The notes beneath the pieces are model-generated. The model worked only from the letters and a program-made list of their open reading frames with translations. It was not told the DNA's origin and ran no database searches. Made by a program: the position numbers and the translations under genes. DNA of 64,000 nucleotides from Pseudomonadota bacterium. Its GTDB lineage: Bacteria > Chloroflexota > UBA5177 > JAJPKF01. This document shows positions 27,262 through 46,373 of this stretch, piece after piece. Positions within the stretch are counted from its first letter, which is position 1. The number at the start of each line of letters is the position of its first letter. The DNA lies in NCBI GenBank assembly GCA_021323865.1, contig JAJPKF010000026.1, forward strand, positions 61,660 through 125,659, written 5' to 3'.

Positions 27262-28536
27262 TTAGATTCTGCCGGCTCGTCGCAGCGGCGCCGTCATCTC
27301 AAAGACATAGCGCAAGAGCTGGATGCGTGCTTCGGTCTGCTCGACCTGGCGTCGGTTCATCGCGATGTGGGCAGTTTCGAGCATTCGATCGAAGTCGTAC
27401 TCCTGATAGGAGCCGTCACCGCCCCAGACAAAACAGGGAACCACCTTGGGCAGCATGCCGCCGCCAAAGAGATTCGAGCCCGTGCCGATGGTGCTGCCGG
27501 AATTGAGGAGCACGCCGATGCCGAGCTTGACGTGATCGCCCACGATGCTTCCCAGCTTGGTCAATCCGGTGTCGACCTGACGGCCCTGAACCTCCACTCG
27601 CACCGATCCGTAGGTGTTCTTCAGGTCGCTGGTGGTGGTCAGTGCGCCGACATTGACCCATTCGCCGAGATAGCTGTGGCCGACGAAGCCGTCATGGTAC
27701 TTGTTCGAGTAGCCATGCAGGATGGAGCACTCAATCTCCCCACCGACGCGACAATGCGGCCCGATGGTGGTATCCTCGCGGATCTTTCCGCCCACGATCA
27801 GCGCATGAGGACCGATATAGGCCGGCCCCTGGATGAATGAGAACGGCTGGATCTTTGCCCCGTCATCCACCATGATTGGACCGGTCCGAGCGTCCAGTAC
27901 CGCTCCGGCCATCACTTCGGCCGTGGGCGAGGTCCAGACAGACTCGGGGTTGTATACCGCCGCCTGCGGATGAATTGCCTCGCTGGAGCCATCACCCCGC
28001 AAGTCCTGGAAGTCGAGCGCAATCTGGGCGCCGTTGCGGTGCACCAGATCCCATGGGTAGGTCACCATGTCCGGCTCGACACGTCGAATGGGCACCTCTC
28101 GGGCGATGGTCGCAAGAACACTCTGACTGTCTTGCTCCGCCAGCCACTTGATGGCAATGGTGAGCCGGGGTCCCGAGAGTCGGGCAGCCACAAGGCCCGC
28201 ATCGGACACAAAGATCTCGTCGGGACCGTCTGGAGGGATATCGTCGATCAGGCCATGATCGGCCATCACCCGCCCATTGACAAAGAGCACCTGACGGTAC
28301 GACTGCAGCAGCTCGTGTGAGTAGCCGACGAGCGACGGTTTGCCCTCGGAGGCGGTCGTGCGAGCCAGATAGGGGCGGCAGAGCTGGCGCACGTGGCATC
28401 CGTCGTAGGCGGTGGCGATCTTGTCGTAGAGCGTGCGGATTCCACAGCGCAGATCGAAGACGGGCCGCGTATAGGTGAGGGGAAGGAAGCTTTCGGCCTG
28501 TTCGTCTTCAAAGACGCAGACCGTGGGGATCGCCAC
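27262..28536 (-). CDS. Alternative GlmU-type sugar nucleotidyltransferase/acetyltransferase
   Basis: 424 residues. The amino terminus TVCVFEDEQAESFLPLTYTRPVFDLRCG matches the unusual nucleotidyltransferase of the alternative bacterial GlmU group rather than the classical GGxGTR motif. The C-terminal half (from about 225) is a left-handed beta-helix with IQPFSFIQGPAYIGPHALI, IREDTTIGPHCRVGGEIE, VGHSYLGEWVNVGA and KLGIGVLLNSGSTIGTG. Such proteins are thought to make UDP-GlcNAc or a related nucleotide sugar. It starts only six bases after the YvcK relative ends and is followed by the phosphomannomutase. Confidence 0.8.
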   Translation of the reverse strand: MAIPTVCVFEDEQAESFLPLTYTRPVFDLRCGIRTLYDKIATAYDGCHVRQLCRPYLARTTASEGKPSLVGYSHELLQSYRQVLFVNGRVMADHGLIDDIPPDGPDEIFVSDAGLVAARLSGPRLTIAIKWLAEQDSQSVLATIAREVPIRRVEPDMVTYPWDLVHRNGAQIALDFQDLRGDGSSEAIHPQAAVYNPESVWTSPTAEVMAGAVLDARTGPIMVDDGAKIQPFSFIQGPAYIGPHALIVGGKIREDTTIGPHCRVGGEIECSILHGYSNKYHDGFVGHSYLGEWVNVGALTTTSDLKNTYGSVRVEVQGRQVDTGLTKLGSIVGDHVKLGIGVLLNSGSTIGTGSNLFGGGMLPKVVPCFVWGGDGSYQEYDFDRMLETAHIAMNRRQVEQTEARIQLLRYVFEMTAPLRRAGRI

Positions 28537-41254: not shown

Positions 41255-43198
<1,944 letters not shown>

Positions 43199-43382: not shown

Positions 43383-43411
43383 TTGACGACACGAGTGCCA
43401 TGGGCTATATT
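43383..43411 (+). promoter_or_regulatory. Near-consensus sigma-70 promoter for the 54-aa membrane protein
   Basis: TTGACG (43383-43388), exactly 17 bases, then TATATT (43406-43411). It is the best promoter in the window. Transcription would start near 43418, about 42 bases before the ATG at 43460. Confidence 0.72.
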
Positions 43412-43412
43412 A

Positions 43413-43440
43413 GAACAGGTGGTCTATAGTACACCTGTTC
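43413..43440 (+). promoter_or_regulatory. Palindromic operator over the transcription start
   Basis: A perfect 9-bp inverted repeat GAACAGGTG-N10-CACCTGTTC begins two bases after the -10 box and covers the expected transcription start and the next 20 bases. Arm centres are 19 bases apart, about two helical turns, which suits a dimeric repressor bound on one DNA face. The regulator is unknown. Confidence 0.65.
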
Positions 43441-43459
43441 GATACAGGAGAGTGTAGCC

Positions 43460-43624
43460 ATGCGCAGTCGGGTTGGACGCTATGCCTACCGCGATCGGAG
43501 CGGCGATGCCGTCGCCGCCGTGGACGAGCTGATGACCGTCCTCGGCGAGCGTATGCCGCAGATCCTGCTCTTCAGCCTCTTCTGTCTGGTGTGGGCGGCC
43601 GTCTTTACGCTGGTGCTGCGCTGA
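43460..43624 (+). CDS. 54-residue single-helix membrane protein (not in ORF track)
   Basis: ATG 43460 with AGGAG nine bases upstream and TGA at 43622. The protein begins with a basic segment (MRSRVGRYAYRDRSG), continues with AVAAVDELMTVLGERM and ends in one membrane helix, QILLFSLFCLVWAAVFTLVL, with a final Arg. It fell below the track length limit. A strong promoter and palindromic operator stand directly upstream, and its stop is two bases from the convergent proline dehydrogenase stop. No family is recognised. Regulated small membrane proteins of this kind often modulate a larger membrane enzyme or cell division, but no target is implied here. Confidence 0.7.
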   Translation: MRSRVGRYAYRDRSGDAVAAVDELMTVLGERMPQILLFSLFCLVWAAVFTLVLR

Positions 43625-43625
43625 G

Positions 43626-44567
43626 CTAGCCCGTGCCGGATCTGCGGGCCGTCCCCGCTTCACGAGCCACGTTGCCCATGATGAAGAGCAGGTTGGCCGG
43701 TCGTTCGGCCAGCCGTCGCATCAAATAGGGGTACCACTGAGTCCCATACGGGATGTAGAGCCGCATACCGTATCCCTCTGCCCGTAGGCGGCGCTGAAGG
43801 TCTCGCCGAACTCCGTACAGCATCTGGAACTCAAAGTCCTCGGGTCCTCGGCCCAGCGACCTGGCCCGATCCTTCACGTACTCGATCAGGGCGATGTCGT
43901 GGGTGGCGAACGCCGGAAAGGTGCCGTCCGCAAGCAGCGCGTCCGCCAGGCGCCGGTAGCTCGCGTCCACGTCGGCCTTGTTCGGATAGGCCACCGACGC
44001 CGGTTCCAGATAAGCGCCCTTGACCAGACGGACGCGAATCCCCCGACCATTGAGATCTCTGATGTCGTCGGCCGAGCGGTACAGGTACGCCTGAATGACG
44101 GTACCCACCGAGCGGGTGGCGTCAAAGATGGACTTGGTCATGGAGACGGTCCGCTCGGTATAGGCGGAGCCCTCCATGTCGAGGCGCAGAAAGTTGCCGT
44201 TGCGCGCGGCGGCCTCGGCGACAGTTCTCGTCAGCTCCTCTGCGACGTCAACGCCCAGATCGAGCCCCAGATGGGTAAGCTTGCAGCTGATGTTTGCATC
44301 GAGGCTGTTCGCGGCAATGGCATCGAAGGCCTGACAATAGCCGTCGGCCGCCTCGGCCGCTTCCTCTCGCGAGGTGACGTTCTCGCCGAGGTGGTCAAGG
44401 CTGGCGCGCATGCCCAGACGGTTGGTCTGCTGGATGGCTCCCAGAGCTTCGGCAAGCGTCTCACCGGCGACGAATCGAGAGGCCAGCTTGCGAGCCACCG
44501 GATTGGTGGCGGCGAGCCGTCGCATTCCCTGGTGGCCGGCCAGGTAATGGAGCCCCTCACGCAACAT
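43626..44567 (-). CDS. putA: Proline dehydrogenase (monofunctional, FAD)
   Basis: 313 residues, the length of monofunctional PRODH. The TIM barrel shows ANISCKLTHLGLDLG, NFLRLDMEGSAYTERT, VIQAYLYRSADDI, RVRLVKGAYLEP, FATHDIALIEY and EFQMLYGVRRDLQ. The closing helix has YGTQWYPYLMRRLAERPANL, the substrate-clamping Arg pair. It oxidises proline to pyrroline-5-carboxylate, passing electrons to quinone. The P5C dehydrogenase partner is not adjacent. The first residues MLREGLHYLAGHQGM fit the family, so the start is accepted. Confidence 0.93.
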   Translation of the reverse strand: MLREGLHYLAGHQGMRRLAATNPVARKLASRFVAGETLAEALGAIQQTNRLGMRASLDHLGENVTSREEAAEAADGYCQAFDAIAANSLDANISCKLTHLGLDLGVDVAEELTRTVAEAAARNGNFLRLDMEGSAYTERTVSMTKSIFDATRSVGTVIQAYLYRSADDIRDLNGRGIRVRLVKGAYLEPASVAYPNKADVDASYRRLADALLADGTFPAFATHDIALIEYVKDRARSLGRGPEDFEFQMLYGVRRDLQRRLRAEGYGMRLYIPYGTQWYPYLMRRLAERPANLLFIMGNVAREAGTARRSGTG

Positions 44568-44690: not shown

Positions 44691-46373
44691 CTAGCTGATG
44701 TAGGCGCCGTCCACGTAGCCGGTTGCGCCGTTGGGAAGACGGACCAAGTCCCAGCCCCGAATCGTGCGAAGCACGGTCACGTGAGTGCCCCGATATACCA
44801 GGCCGATGACTCGGGCACGAAGCCCGGGAACGGCGTGCATTCTCACCGTGGCCGTCGCCACCGGTCCGCGCAGGTGGGCATGTCGCCGGCCCCGATGGAT
44901 CGAGAGCCGGACGCCTCCGGACCGACCCACGAACCGGCTTTCGATCCAGCCGTTCACGCCGCTCGACGTGACCACGTGGGCGAACCCGCCGGCGTATCCA
45001 AGCACGCGGACCCGCATGCCTGCAGTGGTCGCGGCGATTACGCCGGCGCTCACAGATGGCCGGTCATGGATGCGAACGCCACCGACGACCCGGATGCCAC
45101 CCGAGAAGCGTACCGCGAGGCGATGAACCCCGTGCGCCCGCCGTACGACACCACCCAGGAACCGTCTTGACACCCAACCCGTGGCGCCGGTCGAGAGCCG
45201 CACACGAGCCCAGCCCGGGTCCCAGCGAAGGACATGGACAGGCGCTCCATTGGATACCGCGACCACGCCGGTGCGGAATCCCGGAGACGCGTGAAGGTTG
45301 ACACCGGCCTGCAGCGGGGTCCGGCCGGCTCGTCTCACCAAAGCGAGACGATGAACCCGATGATGTCGAACGAGGCCGCCCTGCCCGACGTACCGAGACA
45401 GGACCCACCCGACCCGGCCGGAAGCCATGACGATCTTGTCCCAAGCGCCGGTCCTCAGGATGATTCCGACGCGGTTGCCTCGAGAGAGACCGGCGATGAC
45501 GGGCGCCTGCATGGAGGGAGCGCTATGCACCCGCAGTCCCGTGACGAAGATGCTCCGCGATCGAGCCCAGGCTGCCCGGCGGGCCGAATGCAGATGGCGC
45601 CGGTGACGGCCGGGGCGCCGCTGATAGCCGAACCCACGGGCAACTCCGCTGCGCCGGACCCAGCCGAGAGTGCCCGAGGCGGTTCGCACCCTGACCCAGG
45701 CGGGACGCCAGCCCTCAACGGTCACGCGGGTGCCCCGGGATAGCACCTCAATCACGGTGTCGCCGGTCGAGGGCCCTGAACGAAGGTCAAGGCTCGAGGC
45801 CACGACCACCAGGACATGGAGCCGGTGGTGACGGAAGGGACCGCGCCCACCCGAGCCGGCAGGACCGTTCCAGGGCCGCTCGGCCACCAGATAGTGTTGC
45901 TGCCAGTAGCTGCCGTCCCGAGAGTCGTTGGTGATGCTCGAAATGGTCACACCGTTCTGGGGATTTTCGGCGTGAATGATCTTGCCGCCGCCGATGTAGA
46001 TGGCGACGTGTGACACTCCCGCCCACCAGGTGTTCTGGAAGAACACGATGTCGCCGGGCAGCAGATTGCTTTCCGAAACCCGGGGGAAGGCCGCCATTGC
46101 CGACGCGAGGGTGCCGGGGATGTTCTGGCCGAGCTGGTGGTACACGTACCAGACAAAACCGATGCAGCTGAAACCGGTGCTGGGGCTGTCACCGGTATAC
46201 GAATAGGGATACCCCAGGAACTTCTCCGCCTCGGCCACGACCGCGCTTCCCGAGACACCGGCGGCGACGCTGGTCTGCGCCGATGGCTGGATTGCGGCAG
46301 TGGCAGACATGAACGGTACGGCGCTCAAGGAAAGGCTGGCCAAGAGCGCCACCAACAGAAGTCGAGTCCTCAA
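44691..46373 (-). CDS. Secreted NlpC/P60 peptidoglycan hydrolase with repeated SH3-like domains
   Basis: 560 residues from TTG 46373 with GGAGG seven bases upstream. The signal peptide is LLLVALLASLSLSAVPFMSATA. The NlpC/P60 domain occupies about 45-165 with the catalytic triad Cys70 (TGFSCIGFVWY), His122 (GVSHVAIYIGGG) and His134 (IIHAENPQ). The rest holds about five bacterial SH3-like repeats (for example LDLRSGPSTGDTVIEVLSRG and GVNLHASPGF) separated by His/Arg-rich linkers. Such enzymes cut stem-peptide bonds in cell-wall remodelling, with SH3 repeats binding the wall. It is a single-gene unit ending in a hairpin terminator. Confidence 0.9.
   Translation of the reverse strand: MRTRLLLVALLASLSLSAVPFMSATAAIQPSAQTSVAAGVSGSAVVAEAEKFLGYPYSYTGDSPSTGFSCIGFVWYVYHQLGQNIPGTLASAMAAFPRVSESNLLPGDIVFFQNTWWAGVSHVAIYIGGGKIIHAENPQNGVTISSITNDSRDGSYWQQHYLVAERPWNGPAGSGGRGPFRHHRLHVLVVVASSLDLRSGPSTGDTVIEVLSRGTRVTVEGWRPAWVRVRTASGTLGWVRRSGVARGFGYQRRPGRHRRHLHSARRAAWARSRSIFVTGLRVHSAPSMQAPVIAGLSRGNRVGIILRTGAWDKIVMASGRVGWVLSRYVGQGGLVRHHRVHRLALVRRAGRTPLQAGVNLHASPGFRTGVVAVSNGAPVHVLRWDPGWARVRLSTGATGWVSRRFLGGVVRRAHGVHRLAVRFSGGIRVVGGVRIHDRPSVSAGVIAATTAGMRVRVLGYAGGFAHVVTSSGVNGWIESRFVGRSGGVRLSIHRGRRHAHLRGPVATATVRMHAVPGLRARVIGLVYRGTHVTVLRTIRGWDLVRLPNGATGYVDGAYIS

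Follow-up and report, generated by a model that had tools for sequence, protein, structure and literature searches.

What regulator could hold in check a strong promoter that serves a membrane protein of only 54 residues, and what would such a protein do once released? The question arises at one locus of the window, the whole stretch of 64,000 nucleotides of DNA from an uncultured Chloroflexota bacterium analysed here, where a sequence-only reading had described a near-perfect promoter, a palindromic operator, a ribosome site and an unlisted small gene. All four are present as described. The sigma-70-type promoter TTGACG-N17-TATATT (43383..43411, forward strand; TTGACG at 43383-43388, a gap of 17 bp, TATATT at 43406-43411) matches the consensus at 10 of 12 positions and is the better of two promoter-like sites within 2 kb. 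The palindrome GAACAGGTG-N10-CACCTGTTC occupies 43413-43440 without a mismatch, and it is followed on the same strand by the ribosome-binding site AGGAGAG (43446..43452, with AGGAG at 43446-43450) and by an ORF of 54 codons (43460..43624; ATG at 43460, TGA end at 43624). The encoded protein is hydrophobic towards its C-terminus (19-residue hydropathy 2.74), where it is predicted to form a single membrane helix at about residues 34-53, behind an N-terminal region of 30 residues. A proline dehydrogenase gene (43626..44567, reverse strand; Pfam PF01619) converges on the ORF and ends at 43626, so that the transcript would serve the 54-codon ORF alone before entering that gene. The divergent upstream neighbour, assigned with Pfam, is gyrB (41255..43183, reverse strand), an arrangement found in this genome only, since in the relatives gyrB is located elsewhere, away from the small-ORF unit. 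Past the proline dehydrogenase gene, a 560-residue ORF on the reverse strand (44691-46373), in which an NlpC/P60-type peptidase domain and, after it, several SH3-like repeats seem recognisable by eye, probably encodes a secreted wall hydrolase.

When the palindrome was used as one search pattern, this locus alone was matched, with no second occurrence elsewhere in the window or the whole genome of 2.96 Mb at up to 3 mismatches (chance expectation in the window 0.02), and its relation to LexA was masked. Each half, taken separately, resembles GAAC-N4-GTTC with one mismatch, and the N10 is more than a spacer, as its CTATAG centre provides the inner flanks of both halves. As read from its sequence, the 28-bp palindrome is thus not a single operator but two abutting putative LexA boxes with centres 16 bp apart, the stronger half of each facing outward. 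The sequence-only reading had held that the spacing misfits known LexA boxes; that doubt was wrong because the palindrome had been taken as one site rather than two. A likeness to CIRCE/HrcA operators was also considered and set aside, as it concerns geometry only.

Boxes were scored with a symmetric 20-bp matrix trained solely on those preceding the seven lexA genes of this genome and its six nearest relatives. Degenerate patterns and this weight matrix were used instead of a sequence-only covariance model, which missed most sites and, because of its shortness, could not give E-values on a genome-wide scale. In a scan of the ca. 64,000 positions of the window, the two halves of the palindrome ranked first (box 1, 43409..43428, forward strand, core GAACAGGTGGTC at 43413-43424; 18.6 bits) and second (box 2, 43425..43444, forward strand, core GTACACCTGTTC at 43429-43440, sharing the central CTATAG with box 1; 17.6 bits), the next best site scoring 11.5 bits. 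A single box of such quality appeared in 6 of 300 simulated windows and is only moderately convincing, so that the case for LexA rests on the pair, whose summed score of 36.2 bits compares with a maximum of 22.2 among 200 simulated windows, and on its conservation.

Genes for LexA and RecA were found in this genome and in its six nearest relatives. The LexA (TIGR00498) and RecA (TIGR02012) proteins of this genome score above the respective cut-offs, and in the translation of its LexA the Ala-Gly cleavage site is retained, as are the Ser and Lys that form the catalytic dyad. All seven lexA genes are preceded by a box of the form GNACANNYGTTCTA located directly after the -10 element, and the LexA regulon, sampled from pattern matches, includes sites of this type before recA in five relatives as well as before uvrA, pcrA and Rv2578c-type radical SAM genes of the order. 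The sequence-only reading had suggested looking for further copies of the palindrome especially near lexA and recA; LexA-type boxes were found there instead. Aligned so that the same half comes first, the boxes of this genome read GCACAGACGTTCTATA for lexA, GGACAAATGTACTATA for recA, and GAACAGGTGGTCTATA and GAACAGGTGTACTATA for the operator studied here, which matches the other two beyond chance. Box 1 starts immediately behind the -10 element, like the box before lexA, and the operator overlaps the promoter and start site. The boxes have in common with the Bacillus/Mycobacterium (Cheo) box GAAC-N4-GTTC the core, the dyad symmetry and the location at the promoter, whereas the version specific to this order is approximately TAGNACANNNGTNCTA, usually has one weaker half, and here occurs as a pair spaced by 16 bp. 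Judged from sequence, the 54-residue ORF is very probably an SOS gene under LexA control.

Some other sites in the order deserve mention. Two LexA-like boxes 24 bp apart (L065:1476-1519; G000:C16, ca. position 28292) lie in the interval that separates an Rv2578c-type radical SAM gene from a divergent one resembling 16S rRNA A1408 methyltransferases (WarA model, E 8.8e-34, well below the cut-off of that model). The best-scoring box, a near-perfect TATAGAACATGCGTTCTATT of 24.6 bits, precedes a gene for a 69-residue excisionase-type HTH protein (L067:1501-1754; G002:C81), perhaps part of a LexA-controlled mobile element. Weaker LexA-like boxes are found in the region upstream of gyrB in G001, G002, G003 and G005.

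The whole unit, consisting of the TTGAC promoter, two LexA boxes, ribosome site, small ORF and convergent proline dehydrogenase gene, is present in all six genomes examined from the order, which represent six genera (G000, the genome of the window, and G001 to G005). A homology search with the 54-residue protein gave nothing convincing in a collection of 84,980 species or in 60 relatives, and the counterparts were located by means of the operator rather than by protein homology: for G001 to G004, loci were retrieved from matches to degenerate box patterns and scanned for small hydrophobic ORFs behind the boxes, the unit of G005 being added by profile search. The ORF thus has counterparts by position in five genera. 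The five aligned units (G000 to G004) read CTTGACS-N17-TATA, box 1, CTATAG, box 2, ribosome site, with the TTGAC and the TA of the -10 element invariant and a G-rich ribosome site at the same position in the relatives. The boxes are 16 bp apart in G000, G001, G003 and G004, 15 in G005 and 14 in G002. The proline dehydrogenase gene, identified with Pfam in G000, G001 and G005 and by the same N-terminal sequence in the other genomes, follows the ORF in all six and is their sole conserved neighbour. Conservation in close relatives, on which the sequence-only reading had staked its case, therefore holds for the ORF and the two-box operator but not for the perfect palindrome, as the relatives lack the perfect 9-bp outer arms.

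Neither G006, from another order of the same class, nor the other members of a set of 400 genomes from the phylum contained a convincing member, the weak matches outside the order falling mostly inside long reading frames or frames interrupted by stop codons. The operator is present in the records DHWR01000157.1 (Chloroflexi bacterium UBA5177), JANWJD010000204.1 (Chloroflexi bacterium isolate CRAIB_MAG58) and JAJPIP010000099.1. The last one (L166) is titled Proteobacteria bacterium (Centralia_MAG_338), and its operator and ORF are the same as those of G001, from this Chloroflexota order, so that, judging by sequence, the title looks mislabelled. A small membrane ORF opposite gyrB in the relatives, first taken as the counterpart, turned out to be a different protein; this MKTLLKILALIIFGPLILGL-like ORF is divergent from gyrB in G001, G003, G004 and G005 (L056, L057, L059 and L060).

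The proteins of the family are 50-58 residues long and vary in their N-terminal region; each ends in one helix, in which a Trp is invariant and a [FL]WG.[IV]L motif is common; in the window protein the corresponding residues are VWAAVF, with WA replacing WG. Motif and sequence similarity are clear for G001 to G004, and the G005 protein is recovered with E 0.0016 by a profile built without it. For the window ORF the link is weak (E 0.0076 against a profile that does not include it, the best non-member among 9,364 ORFs), and its membership is carried by size, topology, operator and synteny. A predicted structural model shows two helices, of which only the C-terminal one is confident (mean pLDDT 68.5). 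The ORF matches no Pfam, PHROGs or NCBIfam family, and a phage origin was considered and set aside.

The sequence-only reading had pictured a small membrane protein induced by stress and otherwise tightly repressed, a picture that gains support now that the regulator can be named as LexA and the unit is found in six genera. From the boxes, the LexA and RecA of the genome, the promoter geometry and the conservation of the unit, all of them computed in silico, we infer LexA binding, induction, membrane insertion and a target in division, which would act together as follows. In the undamaged cell, two LexA dimers would sit side by side from the downstream edge of the -10 element across the start site, keeping the strong promoter shut; at a distance of 16 bp, ca. 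one and a half helical turns, they would occupy roughly opposite faces of the DNA. Upon DNA damage, RecA filaments would promote self-cleavage of LexA, both boxes would be vacated, and the freed promoter would give a burst of the 54-residue protein. With its C-terminal helix as membrane anchor, the protein would most likely put a transient brake on the machine for septal wall synthesis, at the level of FtsW/FtsI, so that division waits until the DNA has been repaired. SOS-controlled small membrane proteins that inhibit division occur commonly among bacteria and have no relation to each other beyond size and membrane helix (PMC6051672), and several of them target FtsW or its partners (PMC4211646; PMC13396833). 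This class offers the best fit for the window protein. Given LexA control, a role as division inhibitor is somewhat more likely than not, and we put the probability of the explanation as a whole, an SOS-induced membrane brake acting most likely on the divisome, at roughly 55%.

A second set of relatives of the protein bears on this question. The profile search also detected, in G001 to G004, a paralogue of 60-63 residues that has no LexA boxes (L190:1471-1650, forward strand; L191:1498-1686, L192:1498-1677 and L194:1492-1671, reverse strand). Each paralogue lies ca. 100 bp downstream of YGGCAC-N5-TTGCW, a sigma-54 -24/-12 pattern that occurs four times in 1.03 Mb of retrieved sequence, both strands counted, each time before one of the paralogues. 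An HtrA-like protease gene adjoins two of the four, and a gene for an ABC-type permease-like protein, recognised by eye, adjoins three. Such an arrangement suggests that one effector family could serve two stress circuits, the second alarm being perhaps envelope stress. Tentatively, the two groups might constitute an undescribed family of tail-anchored stress effectors wired to two alarms, the double LexA operator and sigma-54, and acting with a shared Trp-Gly helix on the same membrane machine. The presence of these copies in four relatives, two of them beside the HtrA-like protease, hints at a role beyond division, and the SOS protein could then be an adaptor or modulator of another membrane enzyme, such as a protease, a wall synthase outside the divisome or a transporter, with no direct effect on division. 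We consider this unlikely, given that the SOS copy has no conserved neighbour except proline dehydrogenase and that division is the target of most known small SOS membrane proteins (PMC6051672; PMC13396833).

It could also be the case that the protein has no specific protein target and lowers the membrane potential, bringing damaged cells into dormancy, as would a peptide of the type of TisB or DinQ of Escherichia coli, with which it shares the LexA control, the small size and the single hydrophobic helix. TisB is a dormancy-inducing membrane toxin linked to the SOS response (PMC11575346). Genes of its type are repressed by a structured leader together with an antisense RNA. The leader of the window ORF is no more structured than shuffled sequences (z -0.74) and no Rfam family matches, so that a structured leader and a known RNA family were both set aside, although an antisense RNA of a new kind may be present. 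The ORF also has the 30-residue N-terminal region, and the conserved Trp of the helix suggests contact with a protein; we regard this reading as improbable. More improbable by far is a main role of the SOS transcript as antisense RNA against the proline dehydrogenase gene, with the ORF of secondary importance; the gene is convergent in all six genomes, with the stops a few bases apart in four, but more than 100 bp separate the two genes in G003 and G004, and ORF size, ribosome site and C-terminal helix are kept in all six, which an antisense role would not need. Finally, it is scarcely credible, in spite of the perfect 9-bp arms, unique in the genome, that a different, dedicated repressor binds the palindrome and that the resemblance to LexA boxes is accidental, since the relatives keep both boxes without such arms, the pair scores far above chance, and the flanking genes, gyrB and proline dehydrogenase, include no regulator.

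The putative SOS gene described here probably encodes a so far undescribed damage-induced brake, acting most likely on cell division, and would stand for a new family of an already known type of SOS effector. SOS checkpoints based on small membrane proteins are found group by group, since the proteins are not homologous, and a search of the literature returned no candidate for a small SOS membrane division inhibitor described for Chloroflexota. The candidate from this phylum now comes with its regulator, its operator and relatives in six genera. Moreover, the order-specific LexA motif permits the SOS regulon to be drawn for organisms known mainly from metagenomes, and the sigma-54-type paralogue would make it possible to ask if a single membrane effector operates in two stress pathways.

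Among the known proteins, YneA of Bacillus and ChiZ of Mycobacterium resemble the window protein in their SOS control, one membrane helix and proposed action on the septal wall machine (PMC13396833). They have, however, an N-terminal helix and a LysM domain, whereas the helix of the window protein is C-terminal and no LysM or other Pfam domain was found in it, and the difference from YneA in helix position counts against the division-inhibitor reading. The helix of SosA is N-terminal, with the tail outside. This protein of Staphylococcus aureus is also a small SOS-induced membrane inhibitor of division (PMC6851548), although it differs from the window protein in topology and no sequence relation was found. 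SidA of Caulobacter, an SOS-induced division inhibitor of 29 residues that binds FtsW (PMC4211646), is likewise a tiny, LexA-controlled membrane protein with one helix; no sequence relation is claimed. SidA is about half as long and is encoded by a gene of a single phylum, and the window protein has 30 residues before its helix. Inhibitors of the SidA/SosA type block septation, usually by way of FtsW, FtsI or FtsN. With 54 residues, a predicted membrane helix (hydropathy 2.74) and a putative double LexA operator, the window protein shares with this type the small size, the single helix and the LexA control, and the order-specific family that we propose adds to them a common length of 50-58 residues, the C-terminal position of the helix and the convergent proline dehydrogenase gene.
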